Below, piece after piece: positions 1 through 63,444 of a DNA stretch of 64,000 bases. The number at the start of each line of letters is the position of its first letter. Within the stretch, counting starts at the first letter, position 1. The stretch is from Mugil cephalus. Its lineage: Eukaryota; Chordata; Actinopteri; Mugiliformes; Mugilidae. The notes under the pieces are model-generated. The model was given only the letters and a program-made list of their open reading frames with translations, ran no database searches and had not been told where the DNA came from. The position numbers and the translations under genes are program-made. The DNA lies in assembly GCF_022458985.1 (NCBI RefSeq), contig NC_061781.1, positions 17,639,001 through 17,703,000 of the forward strand, given 5' to 3'.

Positions 1-1217
<1,217 letters not shown>

Positions 1218-4639: not shown

Positions 4640-4645
4640 GTGAGA

Positions 4646-19315: not shown

Positions 19316-19631
19316 GAGCATGGTGAGTGACATGAAAGATGATGAGTCAAGAACAGTAACAGTATAATAGACAATACACTTTGTAAAACTGAGCATGGCA
19401 GTAGATATATTTTAATTTGACCTATTTTTTTTTATTTTGTATACTTCACCAAACTATTAAACCAGTACACATATTATAATATTTATTATCCACTAGTGTA
19501 CAGTCCAAGTGTCAAACATTTTCCCTCCAGGTCCATAAATATTAAACAATCCTTTTGTATCTTTATGACTCATTCAGTTATTACATTTAACATGTCAGCT
19601 TAGCTTTAAGTTGTATGATTTTTTTTTTTTT

Positions 19632-20475
19632 TAACATGTTTTGAGAGTAGCTTCCAAGCACGTGTCCACTAATTTATAACAGACACATTTGCATGGCTTA
19701 CTTTAAGCGCTATTTCATTACGATACATGTCTGTCGCCTACTTGTAATGTTAATCTTACTGGAACGCGACATGGCGCTGACTGTGGTCTTGGAGGAGCAT
19801 GTGGATGTAACTGGCATACAGTTGCAAGACAGGCACACATCCCAGATGTCCAAAATAAAATGAAGACTGAGTGCCATTACATAAAATCTGATGAGGGATA
19901 ATATTTATCTTGGAAAAGAATGGACAGCACATTGCCATCTAGGCTGGGATAAAACCCAAAATAAGTCCTGGGTCAACAAACGTGACGTAAGAGATGCCTG
20001 AACAGTAATAGCAGCATGAATGAAAATCCAATCTAGTAGTAGTGGGAGTTAGAATTTATTGAGTGAGCAATTGAAAGTGGATAGTACTTTCATTCAGTCT
20101 AAATAACAAGTGTTCAGTGTGATATTCAGGTTATGGTCTTTGTATGTCATAAGTCAACAAACCTTGTTATACATAAATAGATTACACACCATTTTTGCAG
20201 AGGGAGATGACTGTGACATTAGCTCAAGATTAGTACAATTTATTAGTATCAACACATCAAATAAAATCTGTCCTTTTATCTGTGTTCTTTTGACAGCATG
20301 TTTTTAACATTTTATTTTCTAAAGCTCAGTCTGAGGCCACAAATGGACAACCAGTTAGAGTACAATGTGTGCACAAATTGCATCGACTCCAGGGTCCAAC
20401 AACAACACCTTTACCTCTGGCCACTTCCTGATTGCAACAATAATAGTGATTTTGAATTTTAGTGGTCACTTTACA
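19632..20475 (+). repeat. Three-copy local repeat, copy 1
   Basis: It is clearly related over its length to 38,332-39,100 and 60,458-61,205, all on +. Shared blocks include TTTGCATGGCTTACTTTA, GGAACGCGACATGGCGCTGA, AGACAGGCACACATCCCAGA and CAATGTGTGCACAAATTG. No transposase or reverse transcriptase motif is visible. A short open stretch starting MAL-VVLEEHV is shared by the copies. It may be an unclassified mobile element or a duplicated genomic segment. Confidence 0.8.
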
Positions 20476-20772: not shown

Positions 20773-21330
20773 GCTGCTGGTTCGTCTGTATTTCTGCAGA
20801 GTGTATCCAACTGCTGATGTACTGCATCTTCACTTCCTGGTGATCTGGTGGCAGCTGTACCATACCTGGCTGAGAATCTGTATATTCAGGTGTGTTTCCT
20901 GTGTTAGATTCTTGGTTTGAGCCATTTTTGTCTCTGAAGAACTGTCAAATATACTGGTTTTACATAGACACAAAGCACGGCAACAGAAACACGTGTCATT
21001 TAATAAGCACAGCCTTCATTAGTGGATCACATGACACAATACTCAAAATTTCTTATGTATTTTTATGGAAACAATCAATTTTAAGTTTTTTATGGCTGTT
21101 TTAGGATTTGTTTAGTATTTTGTCTGTGTCTGTACTAAAAGAAATTGAACTTGAAGACCTAAGAGTGATTCTTAATGCAATATTTCACAAATGCATGGGG
21201 TGTTGTGGTGTCCAGAACCTTTTTTTCCACCACTGTACAGTATGTATATGTAGTTTACATTAATATTATACTCAATGATTGCCAAAGTACTAGTTTAAGT
21301 AAGTAAACCTTGATGGTTCTATCTTCAATT

Positions 21331-21560
21331 CCAGGATCTAATTGAGGAGCTAGAAGATACAGTCACCACCTGAGCCTTGCTACCAGACAGGCTGCTGAAG
21401 CTCAGAAACAACTCAGAGATGTCAAGGGACAGAATCATTTAAATTACAAACTAAAAGTCTAAATAATACTGAAGGTTTACTGTTTTGGTTTGATTTGTTG
21501 TCAGGATGCAAGAAATGCTGAGGAGAAAGCCAAGAAGGCCATCAATGAGTTTACATCCCA
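21331..21560 (+). pseudogene. Myosin heavy chain relic 1 (rod exon fragments)
   Basis: Fragments match copy A in order: the start of coding exon 25 (IEELE region, about 21,340), the end of coding exon 32 ([16 protein letters not shown], about 21,388-21,430, with a stop before it) and coding exon 34 ([17 protein letters not shown], about 21,505-21,550). Large parts are deleted and frames are broken. It is a remnant of an older tandem myosin copy. Confidence 0.8.
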
Positions 21561-21879
21561 ATAGCTGTGTAATGTGTTTTTCTTGTATGTTTTCAATAAA
21601 GTGTGGTTACAAAACAGTTATTAGAGCCAATTATCATTCCGCAGTTAGAAGCAACTCAAGAAACTTGAGGCCGGAATATGAACTAAAGATACATTTTAAA
21701 TATATAGGTTTGATGAAATTTTTCTTTCACTAGTGAGTAAGCCCACACAATTAAAAACATAAATGCACACACAAGATTTAGCCTTCTAACTTATCCCCTG
21801 TAGTTGAACTTGCATGGATCTAATATTTAGACTACAGATTATGAAATAAATAATATGTAAGCCATTTTCCCACACAAGA

Positions 21880-22010
21880 ATACACTCAGAGAATGTAATT
21901 CCGTTTAAGCCACAAAAATGACTCGGTCCTGCACTACGTAGACGTCATGCTCTATTTCAGATGTCACAGGAAACAAACAGTAGGCTGCCAAACCTTAGCG
22001 CCATATTGAC
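21880..22010 (+). repeat. Myosin-relic flank repeat, unit 1
   Basis: The block from ACACTCAGAGAATGTAATTC to AACAAACAGTAGGCTGCCAA recurs at about 23,262-23,380. A shorter piece of it recurs near 61,617-61,650. Its placement after each relic suggests that relic and flank were duplicated together. Confidence 0.7.
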
Positions 22011-22292
22011 TCCAGGAGGAAATCAAAGCTTGACTTGGAATCTTGGAGCAGAAGGAGGTCTCCACTCAATCTTTTTGATGACCCTTCAACTTCTATCCTT
22101 GGGCCTTTCTATGAGGGGTTCTTGAACATCGTTAACTTAGATACGGTGACAGGGAACATAACAATCTCATGACTAAATTGCTATCATGAGATAGTAGAGC
22201 AGTGTGTAGAACATTAATCTAGTATGTCTTGCTAAAGCATTAAGTGAATGAGATATGAGTTATAGTGCTTATTAATGTGCTGTTTGATTGGG

Positions 22293-23110
22293 GTTGAGAG
22301 GCCTAGGAGTGCGAAAGTAGACAAGCAGAGACTTGACCTTCCCAGAGAGCCTGAGGAGATGAGTGAGAGGCTCATGGAAGCTAGCGGAGGAACAGCTGCT
22401 GAGACTAAAACGACTGAGACTGGCTTCAAGAAGCTGCTTTGTGACTTTGAGGAGTCAACCCTTGCAAAGTGAAGCTATTGCAGCTTTCTGCAAGAAGCGG
22501 GACAACAGTGTCTCAGAGCTGGAATAGCAGAATATGTCAAGCCAAAGTTGGAGAAAGAGAAGAACAAATACAAGATGGAGACCGATGACCTGTCCAGCAA
22601 CATGGAGGCTATTGCTAAAGCTAAGGTATGCTATATTTGACTTACTATTAGGCTTAATGAGGCTACCATAATAAAAGTCATTTTTGTTTGTAATCAGGAT
22701 TCTAACATGAATATTCCTACATCAAAAGGATATGCAGAATGGCAGTAAATAAGTTCTGTAATTTCTAATCTTCTGTTTGGTACAGCTACTTGGAGGCAAT
22801 ATGAAGAGCCAGGACCAGGACCAGCTGTGCTCAAATCCAAAAGTGACTGTCATTAATGCACAGAAGGCAAAAAAACTCATGTGTTCACTCGTACCGATGA
22901 ATGAGATGGAGACTCATCTGAGCCATGCTATAAGGCTGCTGAAGCTCAGAAATACCTGAGAGATATCCAGAGACAGCTTGAGGTAAGATTTTACAATCAT
23001 TTAAATAAAAAGTAAATGTCTAACTAATACAGAAGGTTTAGTGTTTTGTTTTCGTCTGTTGTCGGGATGCACAGTTGCACTTAAGATGAACCTGGAGAAC
23101 TCACAAGTCA
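22293..23110 (+). pseudogene. Myosin heavy chain relic 2 (rod exon fragments)
   Basis: About 22,293-22,625 matches coding exon 25 of copy A, including [20 protein letters not shown] and a kept donor-like GTATG, but with frameshifts and an in-frame TAG. About 22,785-22,880 matches exon 26. About 22,895-22,982 matches the end of exon 32 with its donor. About 23,060-23,105 matches the start of exon 33. Exons 27-31 are missing. It sits just upstream of copy A in the same orientation. Confidence 0.85.
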
Positions 23111-23261
23111 AGGACCGAACTGAGTACAGTCACAACACATCTTGATGAGTAACCATGAAGGTTAACTTCACAAGATTGGCCTGGGTGGATTTGTCATAAA
23201 CCTCAATGGTTCATAAGAAAAATATTTTCTAATAGTTACAGTAAAGTCAGTTGTCACACAA

Positions 23262-23470
23262 GAATACATTCAGGGAATCAAATTCTGCTGAGGACACAAA
23301 GATGGCTCAGTCCTGCCCTACATTGATGCAATACTCTATTTCAGATGTCACAAGAAACAAACAGTAGGCTGCCAAGTCCTTGTGGTGTCGTAATGACCCT
23401 TCAATTTCTATCCCTTCTATCTTTTCTATGAGGGTTACTTTAACATGGTTTACTCTGCCAAAGGAACAGC
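23262..23470 (+). repeat. Myosin-relic flank repeat, unit 2
   Basis: This is a direct repeat of 21,880-22,130: it has the AACAAACAGTAGGCTGCCAA block followed by the ATGACCCTTCAATTTCTATC block. It is partly deleted relative to unit 1. Confidence 0.65.
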
Positions 23471-23479
23471 ATAGATAAC

Positions 23480-25054
23480 TATTTTATTTAAGTAATTATT
23501 AGTTTTTAAAAAATTATATTTAAATCTGATCACCAGGTGATTTTAAGCAAAAACTTACTAAACCTGTGCAATAGCTGTTCTGGTAAACAGGCATAAACAC
23601 ACACCCATACACATTGATGCACCAGTACCTACAACACAACATGTATGTCAATACCAATAAATCACAGATTAGCAACAAAGATGCCATTAAGGGAGGGAGA
23701 AAATACTTCAACATGTTTATATCCTCACACCATCTCCTCTGATAAAAGCCAACTAATAAATAATCAACAAAGTTCATAAAACTGTGAGTCAACTTTCTGA
23801 AGCGAGTAAAGATTTGCATGTGTGTTTTCTCTGGTTTGAAATCAAAAATCTAAGAATGGATATCAGATGTCCAAGATTTCCCAGGGTCATTAAATTAAGC
23901 TTGTTTAACAGATGACACCTCCTATCAAATGAAGCAGCTGGATGAAGTTCATTCTGGCTTGTGTCGAGATTATTTTGGTCGTGATCTCTTGCAGGTTGGC
24001 AACCATTTTCATGGCCATATACAGAGTAATATAATAGGACATCAAACTTATTTGGATATATCTCATATTTAATACATGATGCCTGCCAAAGTCCTGTAAC
24101 TGTAGGCCACACACATTTGCATGACGGATGCATTTCTAAAACTAAGCCCCAGGCATGTGACCGTACCCCAAAAGACCTTAATGCTATTTAATCAACATGA
24201 AATAAAGTGTTTTTAAAGTGACTTGATAAAACGTGATGAATCATAATGATAAAGAATAGATTTTTATATATTTAATTATTTAGATGTTATTGACTTAAAC
24301 ATTTTATGAGCACAAATAGTATTATAGTGTTATAGTGAAAATAGTATCACTGATGTAACTGTTCTAGTAATTAGTTTCACATTTAGTGCAGCCTCTAAAT
24401 TTATATTTGACGTGTAAATTATGATTTAATTATTATGTGCTGGCGACTCTGATGTCAGTATCATTTCAAGGATGAACTTTATTTCATTTCAGAGATTTCA
24501 AACGTTCAAGCGTCCTGTAACTGAATACCAAAGGAATTTGGGAGACTTTCCATAACCAACCTTCTAAGCTGCCCAAAATTTTTAAAAATGCATTAATGTT
24601 CAAAGCATGTAAACACATTAAGGTCTCTTAAATTAGGCTTTATTGGAATCCTCCACCGCGGTGTTCTGCACTATTCAATGAATGATAGAAACTCCCCCAC
24701 TTCTGTGTCTTCACTTGGAGGCAGTGGTGGACCATATTTTAAAGTAGGAAGCTTGTAACTCTCTAAGTCTAAGGCAGCAATGTATCCATAAACTATTCTA
24801 ATTAACTGAAAATAGCTATTTATCCCCTTTTATAATGAAATGTTTCTAGAAACATGTCTGGGGTATTGTATTGTTCCATTACATTATTGTACCACCACAC
24901 TTTATAATTCATGGTCACATCCATGTTTTCCATAAAATGTAATTATTTGATATAATATCTTAATCCACCCTATATTTCTTGTCTTTTTTTTATTATTATT
25001 CTAGCCACAGAGAATCACACTGTATCACACTTCCATAAACATCAGCAACAGGAC
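23480..25054. other. Upstream arm DNA of myosin copy A, no gene
   Basis: The DNA is AT-rich and non-coding, with inverted homology to 54,770-56,000. A - strand frame at 23,789-24,133 matches a + strand frame at 55,452-55,742. I recognise no family in that sequence and both are interrupted relative to each other. Confidence 0.55.
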
Positions 25055-25140
25055 GTAGGACATAACCAAACTGGGTGAGTGTCTGCTGCTGACCAGGCAC
25101 TCCCACCCTCTATAAAAGAGACAGCTCTGGACTCCTCCAT
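25055..25140 (+). promoter_or_regulatory. Core promoter of myosin copy A
   Basis: TATAAAAG lies at 25,111-25,118. The 55 bases upstream (AACCAAACTGGGTGAGTGTC then TGCTGCTGACCAGGCACTCC) match the promoter of copy B, while more distal sequence is less similar. The first leader exon follows and ends at 25,162 before GTAAGT. TATA-driven starts are usual for sarcomeric myosin genes. Confidence 0.85.
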
Positions 25141-25845
25141 GAACTGAAGGACCACAACACAGGTAAGTGCATAACTCTCTCCTCGGTGTGACCTTTTATT
25201 TAATGAAATTAATTTTTGTTTTGATTACAACTTATGCATATTGTCTACAATGTATTTGGCAAAAAATGCTCCACATGCATGTCATCCAGGTGAAATTATT
25301 ACAATGGACTAGACATTTTATCTGAAACTATTTATTCAGCCCTTAAAAGGAATTTCTTAAAGTAATTAATTTTATTAAAACTTTGTTGGTGAATTCTTTG
25401 ATACAGTACCATATATCTCAAGAACCATGCACAAATTATAACTTTAAAAAAAGGGCTATGACTATGTCTTTGGTTGTGGGGGAGTTAAAGGAATGGGAAA
25501 GCACTGAATTTAGATGATTTAGATTAATACAGCTGACAGCTACTAAGTCATTAAGTTTCAAGCCATTTTTGAAATTTCACATTCTACTTGCACGGAAATT
25601 AAAATTTTACAAAAGAAACTGAAAATAAATCACATTTACACACAATTATTTATTTCCACAGCATCTTGAGACTCCACAAGAGACTTCAGCCCTGTTTACA
25701 TTTTAGAACGAGCTGAGGTAAAATGTCACACTAATCATGTTTTTTTCATGGCTATCATGGATAGTAAGGAATGAATATGTCAAATTGATGTGGTAACTCT
25801 GTTCTGGATTCTTTTGGACATTTCAGTCTCGACTAAAGTGCCATC
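25135..25845 (+). other. 5' leader of myosin copy A (two non-coding exons plus exon 3 start)
   Basis: Leader exon 1 runs from about 25,140 to 25,162 (donor GTAAGT). Leader exon 2 is 25,662-25,717 (acceptor CCACAG, donor GTAAAA). Exon 3 starts at 25,827 after TTTCAG, with the ATG at 25,846. Two short non-coding leader exons before the coding start are the standard layout of sarcomeric myosin genes. Confidence 0.8.
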
Positions 25846-35899
<10,054 letters not shown>

Positions 35900-36020
35900 G
35901 AGTCAACATCATCTGGGAACCTTTCGACAAAGTTCACAAAATGTGAAAGCTGTTGAACTCTCTTCTTATGATGTGATGATATAATAAATATATTTATTGA
36001 ATAAAATTAATTCATTTTTG
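35900..36020 (+). other. Copy A 3' UTR and poly(A) signals
   Basis: AATAAA occurs at 35,983-35,988 and 36,000-36,005, about 85-105 bases after the stop, giving a short 3' UTR. The first 60 bases are still recognisably similar to the copy B 3' UTR. Confidence 0.75.
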
Positions 36021-36655
36021 ATTTCTCTTTTGTCTTTAAGAGTCAAATTTCAAAACACAGTCAACACCACATAGTCTGGTAAAGCTGGGAGGAAAAGGCA
36101 GAGGCAACATTTGAAAACAAGTGCACCATAACAGACACAAACCAGTGTTCATTTTATAGACATTTTTGATTTAGGCTTTCAGATAAAAATAGTTATTAGT
36201 TTCAGTCATATTTTATTAATTTATATTAGTTTCTATGTTTAGTTGACAAAAAGTCATTGCATGTCTCCTTTATACGTCATCTTTAGACAACACAGTATTC
36301 AAACAAACAGCAGAAACCCGTCACTGAACGAGCTTCTGTGTCTGTCTATGGTGTCGAGGTGTACATTGTTCATGGATTTTGTGCAAGGTCCTTGCATCTC
36401 CCACTGATGCCAGGAACTCCAGCTCTTAGTGCTCCTTAGAACTTGTGCAATTATACAGGGTACTGTGTAAATATGTCGGAGGAAATCCTATTTGAATAAA
36501 CTCTTACCTATCTTAATTTTTGAGAAAATACTATTCACTGTGAAAACAAATAATTAAGGACACTTAATGATGTACATAAACATTATTCTAGAAATGACAT
36601 CCTGAGCCTATGTTGACTTTCTTGCTTTATATACAGAACATACAATAGTTTAAAT
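36020..36655. other. Spacer DNA after copy A, nothing recognised
   Basis: The DNA is AT-rich without long open frames or repeats I recognise. Confidence 0.5.
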
Positions 36656-36757
36656 GGAAATAGCATCCATGAGCTGGAGAAGAAGTAGAAGAAGACTCTG
36701 TAGATTGAGAAGGTTGAAATTCAGTCTGCACTGGAGAAAGCTGATGTAGAACAACAG
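36656..36757 (+). pseudogene. Myosin relic 3 (fragment of coding exon 31)
   Basis: The segment from CATGAGCTGGAGAAGAAG to GAGAAAGCTGATGTA matches exon 31 of copy A (33,791-33,875). It has an in-frame TAG in the coding frame and an overwritten splice donor. Confidence 0.75.
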
Positions 36758-36894
36758 AGTTGAGCCTCCTCATTGCTGTAATTTATTAATAAATTAATAT
36801 AACCGGAGACAAAATATAAACCAAAACACCAGGTTTCTGTGACTGTATTCCAGTTGTTTCTTCATAATGCAGTGATCCATTTGCTTTGGAGTCA

Positions 36895-36895
36895 G

Positions 36896-36926
<31 letters not shown>

Positions 36927-36930
36927 TATA
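36895..36930. repeat. (AT)n microsatellite
   Basis: A nearly pure AT/TA tract of about 36 bases, interrupted once by TAAATA. Confidence 0.85.
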
Positions 36931-37984
36931 TTTGACTGCTTTTCAAATCTGTTGATACAGTCAATCGTACAACGGCTCTTATCTATAGCTTGTAAACGGC
37001 CGTTAGTATATTTCAACCGATTTCAACTTTCGACTGTTTTGGCAAAAATGGACGAGGAAAGCGCATATTTTGGAGAATAAGTTATACTAATACACTCCCC
37101 GAGACCGTGATTGTTATTTTAACAAGGGGCGCACACAGATCTGGTGCATCACCTACAAAGATATTACCAGAAGTAAGCGGAACCATTGAGGTTGGTAAAG
37201 TAGTTTCTGCTTGAAACATGCAACTAACGTTGCGTTAGCTAGCCTAGCGGATAGCATTAGCCTGTAACAACAATCCCTCAAACAATGATTAACTTAATTT
37301 GATGATTCACCTTTCTCACTTATTAAGAACACACAATTTAGTGTAATTTAGTTATCCAGGCTGAAACTGCATTGCATATTAATCTTACCCTGATATGAAG
37401 TGCGCGCTGTTAATGATCGTCTCACTCCAATCCTTTCTTTTAATCGCGTTCAAATCGCGATTAGTTTGTCTAGACTGGCAGTGACTGGTATGCAATAAAA
37501 CTTCAAGTTAGTGTTTTTTTTTTTTTTTTTGCTCTTCCGGTTTTGATCCCCCAAAAATACAGCTAGATGACATTTTCGTGGTTGAAAGCGTCAGTGCTGC
37601 CCCAAGCTTCCTACTGTTTTGCCTCCAGCTATTGTCAAGACGCTACAGTGACATAGGCCATGAAGGGGTCTATTGACTCTTTGCAAGTGACGTCACATTC
37701 CACTCCAGCGATATACGAACGCCATGACAGACCGCGGAAGTGCAGTGGAGTCAAACAAGCAAGCATTACAGTGCATTAAAGTTCAGGACATTTCATGTGG
37801 GAGCAGACGTCTCCAAGGCCTGCTTTACCATCCCTCACACCTATGGTTTCAGTTGGGTTGCAGACAGAGCCTGATTATGATGGACCTGAAATTTCAGATA
37901 GTGCAAGCACTGTTTTACTCAATAGCTGTAACGCCACCAAATGTTAGCTAGATGTCAAGACTGTTTATTTGAGTTAGATGGCAC
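36931..37984. other. Spacer DNA, no recognised gene
   Basis: It includes a T-run near 37,517-37,530 and GC-richer patches near 37,100 and 37,700. A + frame at 37,724-37,951 (75 codons) has no family I recognise; it may be upstream sequence of the LINE relic that follows. Confidence 0.4.
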
Positions 37985-38310
37985 CCCGGGGGGAAACAGG
38001 TTAAAGCATATGCAGCTTTATTTCCTGAGCAGACTGAGGAAGTTTGGAATAAACACTAACTTGTTCACAGACTGTTGTACCATGAGTATGTTGACGGGCC
38101 GCATTACAGCATGGTACGAAAAGTGTTCCAGTCAACTACGGGAGGTGGTGGAAGCAGCACTGTATGGTACTGGAAACAGTGTCCTATCCATTCAAGATAC
38201 TTATCAGAAACAGTACCTACAGAATGGAAGACACAAAGCATCACGAACCACAGCTGCCACAGCACGTAGACTGTTCGCCATGTTATGTCTGGCAGACAGT
38301 ACTGGACCCT
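37985..38310 (+). mobile_element. LINE reverse-transcriptase C-terminal relic (L2/CR1/Rex-like)
   Basis: The + frame contains LYFLSRLRKFGINTNLF, then ITAWYEKCSSQLREVVEAA and SIQDTYQKQ. These follow the pattern of the region after the RT domain in fish L2/CR1-like LINEs (YFLRRLRxFGxxxxLL ... SIQDIYxKRC). The remainder of the element is absent. Confidence 0.65.
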
Positions 38311-38331
38311 AAATTTGTGGGAGATTTCTTT

Positions 38332-39100
38332 GACATGTTTTGAGTGTAGCTTCCAAGCGTGTGTCCACCAATTTAAAATGGGCACATTTGCATAGCTTAC
38401 TTTACGCATCATTTCATTAAGATACATGTCTGTTGCCTACTTGTAATGTTAATCTTACTGGAACGCGACATGGCGCTGGCTGTAGTCTTGGAGGAGCATG
38501 TGAATGTCACTGGTATACAATTGCAAGACAGGCACACGTCCCAGATGTCTGAAATAACATTAAGACTGAGTGCCATTACATAAAATCTGATGAGGGATAA
38601 TATTTATCTTGGAAAAGAAAGGACAGCACATTGCCATCTAGGCTGGGATAAAATCCAAAATAAGTCCTGGATCAACAAGCAAGATGTAAGAGATGCCTGA
38701 ACAGTAATAGCAGCATGATTGAAAATCCTATCTAGTAGTAGTGGAAGTTAGAATTTATTGAATGAGCAATTGAAAGTGGATAGTACTTTCATTCAGTCGA
38801 AATAACAAATGTTCAGTGTTATATTCAGTTAATGGTCTTTGTGTTTCCTTAGTCAACAAACCTTGTTATGCATAAATACATTACACACCATTTTTGCAGA
38901 CGAGAGACGACTGTGACATTAGCTCAGGTTTAGTCCATTTTATTAGTCTCAACATATGAAATAAAATCTTTCATCTGAGTTCTTTTGACAGCATCTTTTT
39001 AACATTTTATTTTATGAAGCTCAATTTTGGCCCATAGTGTGGGCAATGTGTGCACAAATTGTATTGGCCCCCACTTCCCTCCTGTGGAGACACAAACACC
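38332..39100 (+). repeat. Three-copy local repeat, copy 2
   Basis: It is clearly related to 19,632-20,475 and 60,458-61,205 and lies directly after the LINE relic. It begins GACATGTTTTGAGTGTAGC. It carries the GGAACGCGACATGGCGCTGG block at 38,460-38,479 and ends near CAATGTGTGCACAAATTG and the CCTCCTGTGGAGACACAAAC block. The blocks keep their order in all three copies. Confidence 0.8.
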
Positions 39101-39184
39101 TTGCCTTGTTGTGTGTTGCATAAAAAAAATATAAGTAAAATAAATTGTCAATATATACACACTAAAATATACACTACATATGTT

Positions 39185-39201
39185 GATATATACATATGTT
39201 G

Positions 39202-39245
<44 letters not shown>

Positions 39246-39315
39246 ATATGTATATATTTATATGTATATATATATATATATGTATATTTATATGTATATG
39301 TATATATATATACAC
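39185..39315. repeat. Compound (TA)n-(TG)n-(TATG)n microsatellite
   Basis: TATATA leads into an uninterrupted TG run at about 39,213-39,239. About 75 bases of TATG/TA repeats follow, ending near 39,312. Confidence 0.9.
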
Positions 39316-39668
39316 CAAACATAATACTATTGGCCTATATGACCTTTGTTGTGTCATTTCAAATAAGCCAGTCAACACTATGTTTACAAATGGGTCTGTT
39401 GGCAACAAGTTAACCAAGGTCATAAACTTAGAGTGTCCTTAAGATTCCTATTCCTTCATACCAGCCATCACATTGCTGAACTGAAAGACAACTAAGCACT
39501 CTAGCGAACAAATAGCCACAAGAGAGCACTTGAATTCCAACAATGGTTTTTGGCTTATGTTAAGCCAATTGTCATTCAACAACAGTGAGTGTTCATTTCG
39601 CACAAGTACCACTGACTGTAAAGTCCTCATATAATCTCACTCAACAATTTCTACTACAACATAGGTGG

Positions 39669-39905
39669 TCTGCCGGCTGGAGAAAAAATGCTCTGAACTG
39701 AAGATGGACATGAATAGAGAATCTCCTGGTTATACTATATAAGTGAAATGATTGATTTTCAAATTTTGCTGAGTGACACATAAATGTGCCTCTCTTTACA
39801 CTGTTGGGAAAGGCCCGAGAGAAGAGATGGCATCTCAATATGAGATCATTGCCAAATTAACCAAGGAAAAGAAAGACATCCAAGAAGCCCAGACAGAGAC
39901 TCCTC
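39669..39905 (+). pseudogene. Myosin relic 4 (coding exons 21 end and 22)
   Basis: CTGGAGAAAAAATGCTCTGA and following bases match the [14 protein letters not shown] region of exon 21. About 39,818-39,895 (GAAGAGATGGCATCTCAATA onwards) matches the start of exon 22, [19 protein letters not shown]. Both are frame-damaged. Confidence 0.8.
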
Positions 39906-41749
39906 ATATTTAGAGATTTAATGGGCGTAGTTGTCTGTTTTGCTGACCCAGGCCAACTTTGGGTGGTGCACAGGTAATCACGTTAGCTGTGTTGCTTGGC
40001 TTCCAGACAACCATCAGTGTGGTGGTAGATTTGTATTTGGTTTCTTTATATTCTGTTGGAAAGCTAGTTTTCTGTTTAATTTGTACTTTTGTTATAATTT
40101 TGTGTATTTGCTAATTTGTTTTGAGTTTACTTTTTATTTTATTTGTTCCAAACATATTAGAAATTGTTCTCCTGTAATTTACTTTGGATCCTCCCTGATT
40201 GTTTTATCTTGTATTTCAGAAGCTGAGAGCCTAAAGTTGTGGTGGCCCTTCCCAGAGATACCCCCTCTTGCTAGCCCTCCTTTCACCGGTAAGCCTGAAC
40301 TGTGAAGCAGCTAGCTCTTTTTAATATTTTGTCTCAAAAACAGTTTTTACGGATGGAACCTTGTCTCCTGCCTGTTCGCACAACAAACTTGATTACCTTA
40401 TAAGAAATGATTCATAATTAATAATCCCTGGCGTTCATTTGGGGCAGAAAACCTTAGTCTCATCCTTAGTAAATAGTGAATATACAAGTAACTATTTCCA
40501 CAATATACGCAACACTATATTGCATAAATTGCATTCTTTGTAGATTATATGAACCAATAAATCAAGATAAGGTGAAATATAAGTAACATTTTATAGTAGG
40601 AACCTGTGTGTCCTGTTTATATCACTGCCAGTGATGTGTTTACTGGTGTATAGTTGCACAGGATTTCCAAATCACTGAAATAAGATTCAGGCTGATAGAC
40701 TTTCCACTAATGCTTGACAAGTGTTATATATCTCTTGGGAACAGGGTTGAATTAGAATTGCCAACTCGGATCATTCAACACCACAAACATTTTCCTCAAA
40801 TGTTTCTCACAAATGCCACTACTGTTGACAGAATGTTCACACTGTTGGCAAATGAATAAATGCAGTATTCAGTTTTAATATTAACTGAGTGACTGCCCAA
40901 CAAATGATTTAATGATCAACATCCAGGATCAACTTTAATTTGCAAGTTGAATTGACATATTATTTGCTATCCTACCAGCAGATCACACCTATGCTCAAAA
41001 TAAATCCAACAAAAGGGAGGAGTGAGTAATGTATGGCTCAGAGAGACGGATATGTTTAAAGGACATGCTAATGATAGGACATGTTAAAACCATACCAAGA
41101 AGGTCTAAATTCCAACATCTTCATATTTGTTGTAGTTGTCCTTGGGTAGAGTAGAATTGCCAGAAAATTGCAGAAGAGACACATAGCAAAGACCAGAACT
41201 GGAATACTACTGACTTGATCCACTAGTTCTTAGCCTACACAATAGTATATAATATATGATTCTAATATACTGTATCTGCATGTGTCTAATATATCTAATA
41301 GATAATTCAATTCAAAATTACAAATGCTTTGCCATATGTGAAACATCAAGAAATTAAGTGCAGTTTAAGTTACTGCATTCTTGGAATAATAAAGCTAATT
41401 AAACCCAAAACAAAGGCAACTGAGTTTGCTGAGTTTTCTTGAGGGTGATCAACATCATCAAAGTAGCTTCTTCAATTCTACATGCTTAGGAATTTTATAT
41501 TAGGAATATATATGAGTAGTGACCAGCTGAAATTTAACAGCCAGAAACTCACCTGTAACTGGATGTTTTGAACCTCCTTTTCCCCTCAATGAATGGGACC
41601 CAAACAAACAAGCAAAAATGATTATTTCCCACCCGTCTAATCAAAATTGTAAATGAGAAAGCAAATGAATGATGTTATTGGCCATACTTAAAATAAAATC
41701 TCACTTACAGGTCTGCTGAATTTGATGGAAATTAAGCAAATGCAACTGC
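39906..41749. other. Spacer DNA, no recognised gene
   Basis: An open frame at 39,931-40,305 (+, 124 codons) is rich in Phe, Leu and Cys and looks like translated AT-rich DNA; I recognise no domain. The remainder is AT-rich and featureless to eye. Confidence 0.45.
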
Positions 41750-41995
41750 AACTTATGGGAGCGGTGCACAAGTCACCAGTCTATTGCAGGGCTAACACAG
41801 AGACAAATAACCATTGGCACTCATGCTTTACACACTTCAATTTAGAATCACCTATTATCCTAAAGAGCATGTTTTTGGAGGTGGGAGGAAAATGGAGTAC
41901 CAGGAGAAAATCCACACAGAACATTCAAACTTCACCTAGAAAAGCCTGAGCCAGACTTGAACCCAGACCTTCTTGTTGGGAGAGCCACTGGGATT
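41750..41995 (-). repeat. Dispersed fish repeat, copy 2 (best preserved)
   Basis: Read on +, it contains CACCAGTCTATTGCAGGGCT, ACACAGAGACAAATAACCAT, the GTTTTTGGAGGTGGGAGGAA block, AGAAAATCCACACAGAACAT and GACTTGAACCCAGACCTTCT. This is the reverse complement of the repeat at 60,279-60,449. The family is very common in teleosts; its class is not certain to me. Confidence 0.65.
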
Positions 41996-42009
41996 TGGGT
42001 CAGCACCAC

Positions 42010-42575
42010 TCAAAATGATTCAATCTTAATCAATCCTATCATGACAAGCATCTTTAGTACTTTTAGAGCAACCGTTTCTAGGTTTGTTTCTATTGTCAGT
42101 GGAAACAAAGGAGCCCCAGAACATCACCGAGCCATCACTAAGGTCATGTAGCCACTGTTCATTTAGCTTACGAATTATGCTTCCAGTTATACGTCTGGGA
42201 ATATTCAGAGCCTTTGCTAGGTTTTTCTCTAGCCTTATCCATGTTTCTAACATGCAATCAAATGTCACTGTCATCAGTCCAGGTATTTTAGGTGTTCTAT
42301 GTCAAGTATACCTGATGCAACTAATAAAGCCCTTGGCTAGTTGCAGCGCCCGCATGCAATTTGCAAAAGTGTGCGTTTATGAGTCATACTATTTAGGCAG
42401 TTGAATAATTTTGAGACTGCAGTGGTCGATAAAAATGCTATTTTATGTTGAACATTATTTGTGTTGAGCTATTTAAATTATTCTGGTTCGATTTGTTTAC
42501 GACAAATGGCTGCTAGTTTGTACATTTGCCAATAACTTGAAGTGGGGGTTGGATAATTTTGATTGCAACTGTAGT
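42010..42575 (-). mobile_element. Decayed Tc1/mariner-like element
   Basis: A - strand frame (42,274-42,026) includes LEKNLAKALNIPRRITGSII and DGSVMFWGSF; the latter resembles the GGSVMVWG motif of Tc1-like transposases. Related end-like blocks occur at 42,396-42,422 (GTTGAATAATTTTGAGACTG) and 42,546-42,573 (GTTGGATAATTTTGATTGCA), in the same orientation. No intact transposase is left. Confidence 0.4.
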
Positions 42576-42599
42576 TTTCTCTGCGAGTTTCCTAGACCC

Positions 42600-42800
42600 A
42601 CGTGTTTCTGTAGTCTCCTGGTAACCCCTAGTTTCCCAAGCAGACATTGTCTCGAATGCCGTATGCCCATTGTGCATTCTGTGCCATGTGTTGCCCAGGT
42701 AAGCGACACACCTGGCCATCCATGCAATGTGATCATGGGGCCACCTTCTTCTGTTCCTCCATGGTCTAGTTCTTTCTTTTTTACTCTACAGTACAAAATA
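42600..42800 (-). mobile_element. Tc1-like transposon fragment, same family as 3,440-3,860
   Basis: Blocks TTGCCCAGGTAAGCGACACA, CTGGCCATCCATGCAATGTG, CCACCTTCTTCTGTTCCTCC and ATGGTCTAGTTCT follow, in order, the central transposase region of a widespread fish Tc1-like element read on its antisense strand. Frames are broken. Confidence 0.55.
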
Positions 42801-43861
42801 CAAACTACAATATGTGTGTACTTTCCAGTTTTCTGACTGCTGGTTGGTTTCTGTAGAAGTAGCACATCTAGTGCTTCTACTTCATTTCTAAAATGGGCAT
42901 GAGACATGCTGTGGGGGAGATATCAGATTTTATAAGGGGCCTGTATGGTTTATTTGATGACCACCTACGTTTATACTTGGGGTAAGGTTGACCAGCATGA
43001 TCAAAAATAGAAAGGCAGCAGCAAGTGTGGCATCATGTGTCAGTAAGCATGAGTGCATGATAGTGGCTTCTGCAGGATACATAAGGTGGCCCATCTGCTT
43101 GTGTTGATTAAATCAGTAATGTCTGCCTTCTGCCTTAGTGACAGAGACATGGACTGCTTTACTCAATGGCAGATAAAATGATGTTTATAGTCTATGAATT
43201 TATAATGTACCGCTTGTACAGTAAGTGTTTGAAGAAGCCTTTGAATGATCTGCAGGTTTTTTGGCATTGTTTCCTTGCTGCAGTGAAACAGTGAAATTGC
43301 ATTTGTTTGTACATATTCCTGTATTTCTTCTGGGCTGTTTATGCTTTCAGACAGATTTGGTGATGCATTGCTTTAAAGGAGAAGTAGTGTGACATGCTTG
43401 ACTTTCTAAAATAATACAGAAGATTACCACCAGAATGCCAAAAATTGCTTGTTGTTGCTACATTAGAAGTGCACTAAGGAGTCAGTATTTTACAAGTGTT
43501 TGTCTTAAATCTTAATATTTGTTTAAGCTAATTATTGTCTTGGCCACACATTGGCACATAATCAGTTTTACATTTACATAATTTTACATAATAACATTTA
43601 CATAAAAATTATAATAACAGTCACCAGTCACATTCCATTAGGGATTTACAACAGGTCCTCTATCCAAGGCAGAAACACTATCCAAATAAAGCAGTTGATG
43701 TTTTAATGGTACTTGTTTGTTGATGTACCCATTAAAGCTTGGTGATAAAATAATAATAAAACCTGTAATTTTTGTCGTTTTATGATTTGCTGTATCAGAA
43801 CGATTTTTGTGTTGGCACAGTGACTTGGAAAAAAAGTAAAATGTATCATTCAGTAGAGGAG
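42801..43861. other. Spacer DNA next to copy B 3' end, nothing recognised
   Basis: The DNA is AT-rich without coding exons. Similarity to the left-arm 3' flank fades within about 100 bases of the copy B stop. Confidence 0.5.
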
Positions 43862-43947
43862 TTTATTTAATTAACACATTGTGAGAAGACAATACAACAA
43901 CTAGTTCATATTTTATGAACTCTGTTGAAATGTTCCCAGATGGTCTC
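43862..43947 (-). other. Copy B 3' UTR and poly(A) signal
   Basis: On the - strand AATAAA lies at 43,867-43,862, 81 bases after the stop. The sequence after the stop (ACCATCTGGGAACATTTC) is homologous to the copy A 3' UTR but more diverged than the coding region. Confidence 0.7.
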
Positions 43948-54051
<10,104 letters not shown>

Positions 54052-54695
54052 GATGGCACTTTAGTCGAGACTGAAATGTCCAGAATAAGTCATGAGATCA
54101 ACTTGACATAGTCATTCCTTACTATCCATGAAAAAAAAAAAAAAAAACATGATTCATTGGTAGTGACATTTTACCTCAGCTCGTTCTAAAATGTAAAGAT
54201 GGCTGTAGTCTCTTTTGGAGTCTCAAGATGCTGTTAAAAGATAATTCATCATGAATGTGATTCAGTTTCACTTTATTTTGTTATTTTTTAATTTTAGTTG
54301 CTGAAATTTTAATGTGAGAATGTGTTCAAACTAAACCAAACAATTTAAACTTCCATTTCTCCAACTGACTCATACAACCAGAGATAAAGCATAGACCTCT
54401 TACTTAATGACAACCTGTATAACTTATCACTCGGTATATATTTACAGTACATTATGATTCAACTTAAAAAAAAAAGAAAAAAAGAAAAACTACTTTACAA
54501 AATTGCAAAATAGCTTTGGAACAATTTACACACACACACACACACAATAAGTTATTTATTCTAAATGCATTGTAGACAATGTAATAAGTTGTAAGCAAAG
54601 CTAACATTAACTTTATCTAATGAGAGGACAGGAAAGAGTTATACACTTACTTGTGATGGGGTCCTATCAGTCCATACAGAAGTCCACAGCTGCCT
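54052..54695 (-). other. 5' leader of myosin copy B
   Basis: Leader exon 2 is 54,175-54,230 (- strand; donor GTAAAA, acceptor AAAAG-CAT). Leader exon 1 ends at 54,651 before GTAAGT. An A/T homopolymer (54,130-54,147) and a (CA)n run (54,531-54,546) lie in the leader introns. Exon 1 has diverged more from copy A than exon 2. Confidence 0.75.
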
Positions 54696-54765
54696 CTTTT
54701 ATAGAGAGTGGGAGTGCCTGGTCAGCAGCAGACACTCACCCAGTTTGGTTATGTTTAACGTCCTG
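54696..54765 (-). promoter_or_regulatory. Core promoter of myosin copy B
   Basis: On the - strand TATAAAAG lies at 54,703-54,696. The upstream block containing AACCAAACTGGGTGAGTGTC and TGCTGCTGACCAGGCACTCC is shared with copy A. A CAGCTG E-box lies just downstream (54,687-54,692) in copy B; copy A has CAGCTC there. Confidence 0.85.
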
Positions 54766-56180
54766 CTGCGGATGTTTTTGGCAGGGTGATGCAGTGTGAT
54801 TCTCTGTGACTAGAATAAAAAAAGAAATACAGGATGGATTATGATATTATATCAAATAATTAGATTTTATGGGAAAAATTGATGTGACCATGAATTAAAA
54901 AATGTATTAATGCACCATGAAGCTAAACTACATTAAGTAACACATTATAATGTGTGGAAATGAAATTGCCACCACAGAATTATCTCTGCTAGGAAAACCT
55001 AAATCACAGAACAGAAGAAACAGCTGGTCCAATACACTGTCCCAGATGTGTTTCTAAAAACATTTATTAAAACCATTTCATTATTAAGAGAACAATAAGT
55101 AGTTGTTTATGTGTGCATTGCTGCCTTAGACTATTTTGAACCATTACAAGCTTCCTACTTCAAAATATGGTCCACCACTGCCTCCAAGTGTATACACAGA
55201 AGGGATGGGGCCTCCCCCCCCCCCCACCCCACCCCATTTGAATGTTTGAAATCTTTTAAATGAAACAAAGTTCACTCTTGAAAGGACACTGACATCAGAG
55301 TCGGCAACACATATACATTTAACTATAATTTACATGCCAAATATAAATTTAGAGACTCCACTAATGCTGAGAAAGCCCTCACCGTTAGTGCTCAAACTCA
55401 GAATTCTTAGTTGAACAGTTATTGAATCAAAGTTTTAAATAAATGTAGGTATTGAATCAAATTAAGGTTTTCATTGGGTCATGTCACATGTCTGGAGCGT
55501 ACACCAGGCAAGGAAATGTTTGTGGCCTAAAGTTACAGGACATTAGCACATCTCATATTCCTGTAATAAAATTGAAGGAAGATGAGATATATCTATATAA
55601 GTTCAATGTCCCTTTATATTACTCCGAATATGGATGTGAAATGGTTGCCAACCTGTCTGAGACCAGGACCAAAATAATTTCCACACAAGACAAAATGAAC
55701 TTTATCCAGTTGCTACATTTGATAGGAGGTAACATCGGTTAAAGAAGCTTGATTTGAGGCTCCTGAGAAATCTTGGACATCTGATGCCCATTCTTAGTGT
55801 TTTGATTTCAAACCAGAGAAAACTTACATGCCAATTAGAAAAACTTAACACATTTCAGAAAGTAGGCTACCAGTTTTATTCATACTTATAAATGGACTCT
55901 TTGGAGATTTGAGGAGATGGTGTGAGGACTTAAAGTATTAAAGTATTTTCTGCCTCTCCTTATAGCATCATACCATATCATTTATTGGAAGTGATACACT
56001 GTCCTAGTACTACTGCATCACAGTGTGGGTGTTTGTGTGTATGCACTTGTACAGCTAGCTGTCTGAGAACCAGTTTTTTGCTCTACTGGTAAGACCACAT
56101 TTGTGAAAAGTGAGGATATTTTGGCCATTCCTTACTTCTTAATTAGGCTGTTTGAGGGCCAAGACTTGGTCTTAGGGTAA
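54766..56180. other. Upstream arm DNA of copy B, no gene
   Basis: It is the inverted match to 23,480-25,054. It includes a C-run at 55,206-55,219. An open frame at 55,452-55,742 corresponds to the - strand frame at 23,789-24,133, but no protein family is recognised. Confidence 0.5.
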
Positions 56181-56193
56181 AGGTTAAGATTAC

Positions 56194-56235
56194 GTTAGGG
56201 TTAGGGGGAAGGGTTAGGGTTAAGGTTAGGGTTAA
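56194..56235 (+). repeat. Telomere-like GGTTAG short repeat
   Basis: Imperfect GTTAGG units (GTTAGGGTTAGGGGGAAGGG then TTAGGGTTAAGGTTAGGG) lie next to ACTTGGTCTTAGGG. A similar stretch occurs inside a common fish dispersed repeat, so it need not be a former chromosome end. Confidence 0.65.
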
Positions 56236-56948
56236 TCACTTTGAGATGCAGAGAGAGAAAACAGAGAGACGGAGAGGCAAGGTTATGCCTTTTCATCAGG
56301 ATAACTTGCACGGGTTTCATTTTTGACTTGAAATCACTAGTGGCCTGGAAGCTCATAAAATTTAAATATCATTTGACTCAAAATGAATTACCACTGTCAG
56401 GAAAGTGTCATCTATTCCATTCCTTTGATACTTGTGACTCAGAACTGGTGGTGCTGCTTTATTTCTGCTAATGTGAGTCACCATATATTCCCATAGACAC
56501 ATCGAAAGATGCATAGAAATGCCCAGGGATAGAACCTGAACTGTCATCAAATTAATCTCGTGTGGAGCCCTCCTTCTGCTCCAAGATTCCAAGTCAAGCT
56601 TTGATTTCTTCCATGCGAAGAGTCATAGTGCAAAGACTTTCATAACTTGGCAACCCACTGCTTGCTCCTTATGAGATCGAAAATAGACCTTTGCATGATG
56701 TCAGGCAGGCCTGAGCCATTTTTGCATCCTAGACAGAATTTGATCTTCTAAATGTATGTGTAACATGTTGACATTTACATTGTGAGATATCTTATGCACA
56801 TTACATGTAGCATCACAAGAGAAAATAAATAAATGTACTGTATAAATGATGTGATTAGATAATAGGGGACATATTGATGCATTTAAGTATATATACACAC
56901 ACACAACAGATGGATACATACATGTTGGATACACTCAGGAAAAGGTGT

Positions 56949-57800
56949 TCAGGCCATAGGATCGTCAGACAGTGTGATGTTTGTCCAAAACCAGCCCCAG
57001 AGTGATGTTTTGAACTCATTCCTGTTGTTCATCTTGTTGAGCGTAACTTCATATGAAGCTGTTTTAACCATAATGTTCATCCACTCTTTTAGTTCAGGAG
57101 GCTTAGCTGTTTTCCACAGTGTAAGTATTGCCCTGACAGCCGTTGTAGTCCCTGCCATGATTACAGAGAATTCTCCACTTCATGTTTTGTATTTGGCTTC
57201 TGTCCCCGAGTAAACATAACCTGAGAGATAACGGTATGTCACTTCCCAGCCATTTGCTCAAGTTGTCCAGGACTGTTTTCCAAAAAGGCTGAATGAAGGG
57301 CACTCCCATATACAATGTAACAGAGAACCTATGTCTTTCTGACATTTCCAACACAAGTTATTGTTTATTATGCCTGCTCTAAGTTTTAATGGAGTCCAGT
57401 AGTACCTATGTGTTATTTTGTATTGTGTAAATTTCCTTTTAGCTTCCCTAATGCATTTACCATTGTTAGATATAATTCTCATCCATCAGACATCCCAGGT
57501 CTGTCTCCCATATTGTTTTCAGGCTCTGACAGCTGTCGCTGAGCAGTTGATTTGTTGTTCTATAATATAGAGGCTTGATGAAGCTCCACGAGTAACGTAA
57601 AATAATCTGTGATATGGTTTCCATCTTTATATTGAATCTTCTTTGTGATACAGTCTCTGATGTGTAGATATTTCCAGAAATGTTCCTTTCCCTTAAGATT
57701 TTATTTTCTTTAAACATCAAGAAATGACATAAATACGCCTTCCTCATATAGATCAGCAATATGACATATTCCATTAAGGTGCCATTCCCTCCAGTATATT
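56949..57800 (-). mobile_element. L1-type LINE, ORF2 3' end, decayed
   Basis: On the - strand successive frames read KFTQYKITHRYYWTPLKLR, CWKCQKDIGSLLHCIWECPS (zinc-knuckle-like CxxC...HxxxxC), PLSLRLCLLGDRS, TAVRAILTLWKTAKPPELKE and WMNIMVKTASYE. This is the C-terminal order of fish L1-type ORF2. At least three frameshifts separate the pieces. The reverse transcriptase and endonuclease parts are absent. Confidence 0.8.
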
Positions 57801-57934: not shown

Positions 57935-58700
57935 ACCTTAGCTTCTTCCAGTGCTGCCTGCATTTCAGTCTTCTTTGCTTTCTCCAGTTCATGAATACTC
58001 CAGTCTCACCAATCTGTTCAGTCAGGTCTGAGATCTCCTCTTCAGGAAAGAAAAGCAAAAGAATTTAGAACTAGCATTTAGTCAGTATTGTAGTGATACG
58101 GATTTAAGGTTATCGTATAGATAGTATGTATATAGTATAAAAGTAATCATACTCTGCAGGTTCTTGTTCTCTCTCTTCATGGTCTCCAGCTGATCCAGAG
58201 GCTCTTCATAGGAGTTCTTTATCTTGAACAGCCTTTATTGTAATTGTACTTATATTATGTATTTTGGGGAGAGAGAGCCTTTAATACCTTCACTTCCTCG
58301 ATTTGTGTCTTAAGCTCCTCCATTTGCTCAGGGAATGCCTGCTTGCCCTTGGTCAGTTGAGAAACGAGAGCTTTCTCCTCAAGCTGGCGGGATGCATTAT
58401 TACTAAAGATAAGTCTTGTTAATTTGATTCATTCACTTCTACACTGCAAATCAATATTTAGCAAACATTAAATATCATATTTGGTAAATTTAACATCAAC
58501 ACTTCTCAATACACGTCCTCAACAGTTCTACACGTTTTCTCCAAGTTACCCTACAGAAACAAAATGTAATGTATGTTCTGCATGTCCACAAGTTTAAAGC
58601 TACTGTATTGTAATGGAAGACAAACCAACCACTTACCTTTGCTTTGGCAACAGCCTCCATGTTGCTGGAGAGGTCATCCATCTCCATCTTGTACTCACTC
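57935..58700 (-). pseudogene. Myosin heavy chain relic 5 (rod exon fragments)
   Basis: On the - strand, in gene order: part of coding exon 25 with its donor (58,700-58,638, [20 protein letters not shown]), start of exon 26 (about 58,556-58,510), exon 27 (about 58,400-58,290), end of exon 30 (about 58,240-58,157) and exon 31 (about 58,046-57,935, [14 protein letters not shown]). Exons 28-29 are deleted. It lies upstream of copy B in the same orientation, mirroring relic 2 upstream of copy A. Confidence 0.85.
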
Positions 58701-60449: not shown

Positions 60450-60457
60450 GAGGGAAA

Positions 60458-61205
60458 ACACACATTTGCATAGCTTATTTTATGCACTATTTCATTAAGA
60501 TACATGTCTGTCGCCTACATGTAAAGTTAATCTTACTGGAACGCGACATGGCGCTGACTGTAGTCTTGGAGGAGCATGTGAATGTTACTGGTATACAGTT
60601 GCAAGACAGGCACACATCCCAGATGTCTGAAATAAAATTAAGACTGAGCGCCATTATATTAAATCTGATGAGGGATAACATTCGCCTTGGATAAAACCCA
60701 AAATAAGTCCTGGATCAACAAACATGACGTAAGAGATGCCTGAACAGTAATAGTAGCGTGAATGAAAATGCAATCTAGTAGTAGTAGAATTTAGAATCTA
60801 TTGAATGAGCAATTGAAAGTGGATAGTACTTTCATTCAGTCTAAATAACAAGTGTTCAGTGTGATATTCAGTTAATGGTCTTTGTATTTCTTTAGACAAC
60901 AAACTTTATTAAGCATAAATACATTTATTTACCATTTTTGCAGAACAATTTATTAGTCTCAACATATTAAATAAAATCTGTCCTTTCATCTGTGTTCTTT
61001 TGACAGCATATTTTTAACATTTTATTTTCTGAAGCTCAGTCTCAGGCCTCAGATGGACAACCAGTTTAGAGTGCAATGTGTGCACAAATTGCATCCACTC
61101 CAGGGTCCAACAACATCTCTGCCTCCTGTGGTGGCACAAACATCTTCACCTCTGGCCACTTCCTGGTTGCAACATTAATAGCAATTTTCAACTGAAGTGG
61201 TCACA
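60458..61205 (+). repeat. Three-copy local repeat, copy 3
   Basis: It is clearly related to copies at 19,632 and 38,332. The open stretch LILLERDMALTVVLEEHVNV continues here for 70 codons (60,482-60,694). The end, with CACCTCTGGCCACTTCCTGG, matches copy 1. Confidence 0.8.
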
Positions 61206-61580: not shown

Positions 61581-61764
61581 GAAATGAAATAAATAATATG
61601 TTAGACATTTTCCCACACAAGAGTACACTCAGAGAATCAAATTGTGTTTAAGACCCAAATATGATACATATAGTGAGATATCCAGATATAAGGTGAATAT
61701 GCAATAAAGTGTAGCCTTATCCATTAACCTGCCAGTTCAACAAATCCCACAGGAAAATTTCCAT

Positions 61765-63353
61765 TTTCAATGGAATACGTATCTGGGCTTAGAGGTTCCC
61801 ATGCAGTTAGATACGACTTTCCACTTACCTATGAGACAATGTTAAGGAAGGTGGAGAAGGACCTGGACAGATGGATGCAACTACCCATTTCTCTCATAGC
61901 GCGTGTGAATTGTATAAAGATGAACTTGCTGCCGCGATATCTCTACCTGTTTCAAACCCTTCCCATATCAATGCCAACTAAATTTTTCAAGAAACTAGAA
62001 GGTGTGATATCCAGGTTTATATGGAGGGGGAATGTACCCAGAATTAAAATTAAGACCCTGTATAACACTCCCCAGCACGGTGAGCTGAAACTCCCCAATT
62101 TCGATTTTTTTTTTACAGGGCTGAGAACTATCTGGTTCTGGCAGATAGAGATGCCCAACCCTCGAGCTTAGAAGCAAATAGAGCCGTTCCATGCAGCTTA
62201 TGTGCCACTGGCTGGTATTCCCTTTATTAAATCCTATCATACCTTGAAGGATGGCACAGATAATCCATTAATCAACCATACGTCTAAATTATGGTCAGTT
62301 ATACAACTACGTACCCGTAGTGTGAAATTATTGCATAACAGCACCCCCTTTCATAATAACCCTGCACTACCACTAGTACTAAGAGATGGTCTCACTAAGA
62401 GGTGGCACAATATGGGGACTAAAACATTTGGCGACCAACAAAGAAAATAATACTCAAATCCTTTGAGCAGTTAAAAGATACCCTCAGTCTCCCTGCTGTG
62501 CATTTCTATAAATACCTGCAGGTCAGGCATTTAATTTGCTCTCAACAGGGTGGGAACCCAACGCCTCTAGGATCTCCTGTAACTCATGACATTCTGAAGG
62601 GCATTCAATGCCCTAAGGGCATGGTGTTCTTGACATATAGCAGAATACTGGACCTCCTGGTAAATAAAACTCTGAAATCTAGGGTTAAATGGGAACAAGA
62701 TCTCGGTTTCACTTTTGAAGACTGTGACTGGGAAGGGTTTGTGTAGTGCAGCTCAAAATCTCTCGTATAATAGTCGTCATAGGCTTCAGCAGTTTAATCT
62801 CATTCATAGAACCTATCCCACACCAGAGAGACTTCATAAAATGTACAGTACGATTTCTGAACGTTGTCCTAGGTGTAAGGTTGCAACAGGAAGTCTTGTC
62901 CATATGTTTTGGGGGTGTGCAAGTTTGAGACAATTCTGGGATCACATTCTGAATGCACTCAAGGGCATCACAGGGATTGATATCCCTCACTTACCATGAT
63001 TAATTCTGCTAGTGGACTTATGTGTTTTACCTACTGACAAAATAAGGAAAACACGATCTTTTTTACAAATGCTGAAGTGACTTTAAAATTTACCTGGATA
63101 ACTTTTGATAGTTAAGTTGGTGTGGCGGTGGTCGTTGGTTGCAGCACACCTGCAGAAGTATTTGTGCTTCTCCATTACCAATGTCATGTCCTGTGCTGAA
63201 CGTAATTTGCTGTGCTTTGTATCTTCTGTATCGAATCGATTGGCTTGGGAGGGGGATGGGTCTGGGTGGAAGCTGAAGTTCTATTGCTCTTATTGATGCT
63301 GTGAACTGGATATGAAAAATGTTAATAACTATATTGTTTAAAAAAAAAAAAAA
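61765..63353 (+). mobile_element. L1-type LINE, ORF2 C-terminal part with A-rich end
   Basis: Frame 61,770-62,171 reads LDRWMQLPISLIARVNCIKM, NLLPRYLYLFQTLPI, FKKLEGVISRFIWRG and GELKLPNF, the post-RT region of fish L1 ORF2. Frames at 62,202-62,450, 62,498-62,746 and 62,715-62,999 continue it; the last has LIHRTYPTPERLHKMY and CPRCKVATGSLVHMFWGC (CxxC...HxxxxC). Several frameshifts and stops break it. An A-run at 63,340-63,353 is a plausible 3' tail. The 5' part is missing, as in usual L1 truncation. Confidence 0.82.
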
Positions 63354-63444
63354 GACTAAAATGTCGGCGCACACAAGATGTCAACCTTTCAGATGTTAAA
63401 GAACAACAGTAGCTGTTCTAAACCTAAGCGCATTATTGCTCACG

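Follow-up and report, generated by a model that had tools for sequence, protein, structure and literature searches.

In excerpts, MYH clusters A, B and C are described for torafugu, medaka and other teleosts, and a figure legend of the same paper numbers the MYH coding exons 3-41 (PMC3869912). For zebrafish, one sentence of a 2025 stickleback preprint presents the tandem fast MYH genes as two inverted groups of three (PMC12776057). The excerpted text of that preprint also reports that trees join fish MYH copies species by species, and that the MYH3C locus of threespine stickleback, with tandem copies and with SYT19 and NLRC5 nearby, has undergone copy-number turnover, for which its authors left independent expansion versus gene conversion open (PMC12776057). 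Searches for inverted or tail-to-tail MYH genes, for MYH conversion and for the synteny described below found, among the open-access papers listed, nothing beyond the zebrafish sentence that describes such an arrangement. Unequal crossing-over does not ordinarily homogenise inverted copies; inverted copies therefore help to separate expansion from conversion.

The window, the whole stretch of 64,000 nucleotides analysed here, corresponds to C12:17639001-17703000 of a Mugil cephalus assembly of 634.8 Mb in 24 contigs. The contig size, 26.5 Mb on average, and the short coding introns (77-406 bp) fit a teleost host. It was extended by the next 130 kb to a locus of 194 kb. A Myosin_N exon search of the whole assembly gave at least 33 matches. 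Eight MYH copies stand within 139-140 kb at the locus, and seven of them have all 39 exons placed.

25846-35899, plus strand: MYH gene A, encoding 1941 aa in 39 coding exons (exons 3-41)
54051-43948, minus strand: MYH gene B, encoding 1939 aa in 39 coding exons
67463-78186, plus strand: MYH gene C, 39 exons placed, no internal stop, ATG 3.5 kb past the window's right edge
95256-85319, minus strand: MYH gene D, 39 exons placed, no internal stop
103134-99752, minus strand: MYH copy E, truncated, 9 of 39 exons
124687-114486, minus strand: MYH gene F, 39 exons placed, no internal stop, GC donor after exon 7
150265-140062, minus strand: MYH copy G, 39 exons, one-base frameshift in exon 32
from 165228, minus strand: MYH gene H, 39 exons placed, no internal stop

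Where exon 15 of D and of G begins, and at exon 39 of H, the DNA itself shows usable splice sites. The locus thus has several MYH copies in one region, as a teleost fast MYH cluster does. Most copies lie on the minus strand; A and C are the plus-strand exceptions. They give two tail-to-tail pairs, A/B and C/D, with B and C standing head to head. The first-pass annotation of the window had described A/B as a large palindrome and had taken fish fast MYH clusters to be usually head to tail; A/B does not stand alone but belongs with at least six other copies to one cluster, which has a second tail-to-tail pair, and the order + - + - - - - - departs from that premise. Six decayed MYH fragments in the window, and gene C past its right edge, were absent from that annotation. 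Elsewhere in the genome there are five other groups of Myosin_N matches (spacing below 30 kb), four of which are uniform in strand (C7, C10 and two on C20). The fifth is mixed, - - + (G000:C4:5567999-5594816), and one of its matches carries TAG.

The exon models of A and B were predicted by a gene finder that had been trained on this sequence, and three exon limits were corrected by hand. Their upstream elements are placed as follows.

25110-25120, plus strand: TATA box of gene A, from alignment and motif positions
ending at 25162, plus strand: noncoding exon 1 of gene A, limit predicted from conserved splice signals
about 25662-25717, plus strand: noncoding exon 2 of gene A, limits predicted from conserved splice signals
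from 25827 up to 25845, plus strand: leader of exon 3 of gene A, limit predicted from conserved splice signals
54704-54694, minus strand: TATA box of gene B, from alignment and motif positions
within 54052-54704, minus strand: noncoding leader exons of gene B, from alignment and motif positions

A and B share the TATA block, the leader-exon splice signals and the polyadenylation signal, and both have 39 coding exons after two noncoding exons, as expected of a sarcomeric class II MYH gene. Their introns are bounded by AG/GT signals (77-406 bp for the coding introns), each frame has a single, terminal stop, and the exons of A project onto B with no splice problem. The Pfam and PDB scan was made with gene A. 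It places Myosin_N, the motor and the coiled-coil tail in one protein (9.5e-17, 2.2e-281 and 4.2e-156, respectively), and the top PDB match is Myosin-4, covering residues 2-1934. Judged by its sequence, gene A is a sarcomeric (muscle) class II myosin heavy chain gene; the B protein differs from it in 27 of 1,941 alignment columns. Nineteen of these 27 differences fall within the first 780 residues (binomial p 0.0025), and several surround what we take to be loop 2. Between A and B, dN is 0.0059 and dS 0.072 by NG86 (dN/dS 0.08), and 0.0067 and 0.054 by YN00 (dN/dS 0.13). Purifying selection is the best explanation for A and B being kept as complete genes, and their sequences suggest that both work in fast muscle.

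Self-BLAST of the window yields inverted arms at 25596-35720 and 54294-44075, made up of five long segments that are 92-96% identical (E=0), and a weaker inverted piece (78%) extends them to 35988 and 43862. The resulting segments are the following.

25596-35988, plus strand: left inverted arm, 92-96% up to 35720, then 78%
43862-54294, minus strand: right inverted arm, by self-BLAST
about 35989-43861, no strand: spacer of 7.87 kb between the arms
23241-25595, plus strand: upstream DNA of A, patchy match to B upstream, 96% identical to C upstream
54295-56778, minus strand: upstream DNA of B, resembling that of D and F

Each arm measures about 10.4 kb, and A-B homology stops at about the polyadenylation signals. 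These arms, with the open frames and splice sites, bear out the first-pass reading of an inverted, tail-to-tail pair of intact 39-exon MYH genes around a spacer of about 7.9 kb, and the identity along the arms, proposed there as a check, agrees with it. Upstream, collinear inverted homology reaches 23241 and 56778, about 2.6 kb from each ATG, but it is weak and patchy. The outer edges proposed at 22010 and 56620 rest on a piece in which the upstream DNA of B is paired to sequence 3' of an older MYH relic, which lies one unit farther out than the A-proximal counterpart of that DNA. A and B are 64-72% identical upstream and 45% identical, i.e. unrelated, in their 3' flanks; the pair does not have the highly identical arms, flanks included, of a palindrome. 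The left end of the spacer is 3' flank of the A type, with 36149-36389 resembling the 3' flank of C (87%), and its right end is minus-unit intergenic DNA like that of D, F and G. The flipping of the spacer that had been envisaged is not seen in comparison with these relatives in the one assembly, each end having the 3' flank type of its own gene. AT and TATATG microsatellites lie in the spacer at 36896-36931 and 39203-39311.

Comparison of both arms with the rest of the window located five of the six relics below, all but R6; the same search on the reversed sequence gave no MYH matches.

21263-21716, plus strand: MYH relic R1, pieces of exons 25-35
22286-23094, plus strand: MYH relic R2, exon 25, and exon 32 with the following intron
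36655-37326, plus strand: MYH relic R4, exon 31 and a piece of intron 35, in the spacer
39747-39891, plus strand: MYH relic R5, exon 22, in the spacer
57966-58700, minus strand: MYH relic R3, upstream of B
61584-63977, plus strand: relic R6, a copy of the R1-R2 intergenic DNA and the start of R2's exon 25

R2 has a counterpart upstream of C at 64107-64643, R5 is also present downstream of F and G, and the counterpart of R3 is the truncated copy E, upstream of D. R6 was found by DNA similarity to R2 and its flank only, with no match by tblastn, and is interrupted by a LINE-like insert; the relic at the right edge of the window forms part of the sequence upstream of C. A LINE-like reverse transcriptase tail lies at 61728-62999 on the plus strand (zf-RVT 7.9e-7 at 62676-62999), and another on the minus strand at 57258-57485 has zf-RVT at 0.015, below the cut-off. 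A 46-bp match to the arms occurs at 16321 (E 7e-4). Repeat M is present in six copies, at 19626-20469, 38325-39102 and 60455-61204 in the window and near 80.0, 106.7 and 132.2 kb in the extended locus. All are in plus orientation, beside or between myosin units regardless of gene direction, and the repeat may mark unit borders. On the left of the window are the end of a LANC-like gene at 100-1217 (plus strand; Pfam 2.2e-18 and 3.1e-7), which we guess to be LANCL3 from human synteny with XK, and an XK-related gene of at least three exons at 4640-12836 (plus strand; PF09815 at 1.1e-18, 1.1e-11 and 6.7e-47) with a 24-bp coding repeat at 12711-12772. An Rfam search at gathering thresholds and a tRNA search by ARAGORN with the bacterial code each gave no match.

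Two accounts of how the orientations arose were rejected. A model drawn from the window alone, in which the segment from B to R3 was inverted within a plus-strand array, fails on the wider locus, where minus is the majority and A and C are odd. Breakpoints at the inverted repeat 41768-41906/60395-60276, where that model had put them, were discarded as well; both sides recur near 82.9, 112.3 and 137.4 kb. We also considered a tandem duplication of the whole A-B unit as a possible origin of C-D. The flanks of A and C, 96% alike, would suit it, but those of B and D are only 87-89% alike, and D is closer to F (94%).

The flanks and the gene bodies record different relationships. Upstream identity is 96.2% for A-C, 94% for D-F, 87-89% for B-D and 64-72% for A-B. 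The contrasts between pairs are smaller in exons (A-B 98.1%, A-C 98.1%, B-C 98.0% and B-D 97.7%), and introns give 90.3% for A-C and C-D, 88.7% for A-B and B-D, 87.3% for A-D and 86.5% for B-C. For the site analyses, columns lying two positions or fewer from a gap were excluded, and H (about 50% identical upstream) and E (truncated) were left out. Over 1,493 flank columns, quartet sites support AC|BD 330 times, AB|CD once and AD|BC never; over 9,144 gene-body columns the counts are 105, 104 and 15, respectively. The labels are clustered along the bodies, 167 of 223 neighbours being equal against 97.4 +/- 7.0 in permutations (0 of 5,000). Sites private to a pair among the six genes A, B, C, D, F and G tell the same. 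In the flanks (1,387 columns) there are 238 for AC and none for AB, CD, BC or AD, and in the bodies (9,058 columns) there are 77 for AC, 65 for AB, 23 for CD, 12 for BC and 2 for AD. These five labels are clustered too (121 of 178 equal neighbours against 59.6 +/- 5.9; 0 of 5,000). With introns 12, 14, 24, 34 and 38 removed, AB retains 44 sites, AC 29, CD 12, BC 12 and AD 2, and clustering persists (45 of 98 against 29.9 +/- 4.2; 4 of 5,000).

The tracts are visible in single introns. C and D have the same intron 12 without a difference, and ten sites in it are shared by these two genes only; intron 34 of A and B has a sequence of its own. Stretches of A-C type (introns 14, 24, 36 and 38) alternate with A-B tracts. 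Intron 37 (0 of 94 positions differing between A and B) adjoins intron 38 (28 of 118; p 2.6e-8). A-B intron divergence is fitted far better by two or three rate classes (BIC 255 and 252) than by one (346). The leader introns of A and B differ at 31% of positions and the coding introns at 12%, the second leader intron being set at 25713-25826 with its donor reading at about 25718. Derived sites common to the two arms against the flank history, as expected of conversion in a palindrome, are present, and they support the suggestion of the first-pass annotation that the inverted arms can exchange sequence.

A misassembly of similar copies could in principle produce either the order or the tracts, the coding sequences being 95-99% alike. 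Such an artefact is very unlikely. The spacers and flanks can be told apart and lie as far as 30 kb from one another, the 194 kb contain no N, and shared tracts such as that of intron 34, with its numerous private differences and its deviating length (97 versus 129 bp), are not collapsed copies.

Several results qualify the strength of the exchange signal. For A and B alone, third-position differences show no significant clustering (dispersion p 0.29, longest run p 0.055), there is no link between the divergence of introns and the silent divergence of adjacent exons (rho 0.07), adjacent introns are uncorrelated in divergence, and scans for runs of divergent introns give p values of 0.30, 0.18 and 0.05. 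The mosaic becomes clear only once C, D, F and G are compared. Because the divergent A-B introns are those that differ in length (rho 0.71), alignment may account for part of the intron contrast. Of the 65 private A-B sites, 20 come from intron 34, and of the 23 private C-D sites, ten come from intron 12; each set is probably one event. In the whole-CDS tree, computed with H lacking its last 18 bases, A and C still separate from the other genes (support 0.984). These mostly negative A-B tests would suit a history with no exchange, in which a single inverted duplication was followed by constraint on introns and silent sites, and silent sites and short introns may indeed be constrained. Constraint, however, explains neither the clustering of sites that are shared only within A-B or only within C-D, in conflict with the flank history, nor the distinct intron 34 common to A and B. 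This history is already contradicted unless the assembly is wrong, and we give it hardly any credence.

The reading that we hold with high confidence is that of a birth-and-death MYH cluster whose gene bodies have been converted in patches, mainly between tail-to-tail partners, while the flanks keep an older history. The cluster of sarcomeric (fast-type) genes has most of its members in minus orientation (B, D, E, F, G and H) as well as two plus-strand units, A and C, which make the two tail-to-tail pairs. Ectopic gene conversion would have overwritten gene bodies in patches, mainly A with B and C with D, and the promoters, leader introns and 3' flanks would retain their older, separate history. 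Exchange reaches beyond the partners, since there are 12 private B-C sites, and 58 sites in the bodies (17 in the flanks) separate the trio A, B and C from the trio D, F and G. Eight of the 12 B-C sites fall in introns 2-10, where B and C face head to head; the numbers are small.

Mosaic bodies would also be expected if the arms had repeatedly crossed over, each crossover flipping the spacer and an even number restoring the present orientation; exact runs shared by A and B, which reach 236 bp, could serve pairing. Against such reciprocal exchange, gene A shows the A-C type at either end (exon 1 and introns 14, 24, 36 and 38) with A-B tracts in between, and each spacer end keeps the 3' flank type of its own gene, so that several even-numbered exchanges would be needed. 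We consider it improbable. Conversion without crossover would leave A-C-type stretches between A-B tracts, and the evidence points to conversion, not repeated crossover, as the maker of the tracts.

A further proposal, which we put forward tentatively and think rather doubtful, is that tail-to-tail orientation decides the conversion partners and that the loop 2 stretch (intron 14) escapes exchange. Inverted neighbours would fold back on each other, so that A-B and C-D share private sequence and A-D, about 49 kb apart, hardly any. The rest of the gene would be homogenised while motor differences persist.

Because the duplications can be read from the flanks and later exchange from the gene bodies, expansion versus conversion is directly testable at this locus. 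Like the torafugu and medaka clusters, as far as the excerpts describe them, it holds several fast MYH genes in one region with coding exons 3-41. It shares MYH copy-number turnover with the described part of stickleback MYH3C, and differs from it in that the units are inverted and LANC-like and XK-related genes lie on the left. Sex-chromosome palindromes, in the features considered, are alike in having inverted arms kept similar by gene conversion; unlike them, this locus has gene bodies alone homogenised and flanks that diverge. In zebrafish, too, the tandem myosin genes fall into two groups of opposite orientation. At the level of that one-sentence description, two inverted groups of three there compare with + - + - followed by a minus-strand run here. 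Inverted MYH groups and copy turnover are on record; the alternating order and the partner-biased exchange make this locus a new form of that known arrangement, as far as the open-access papers surveyed show.
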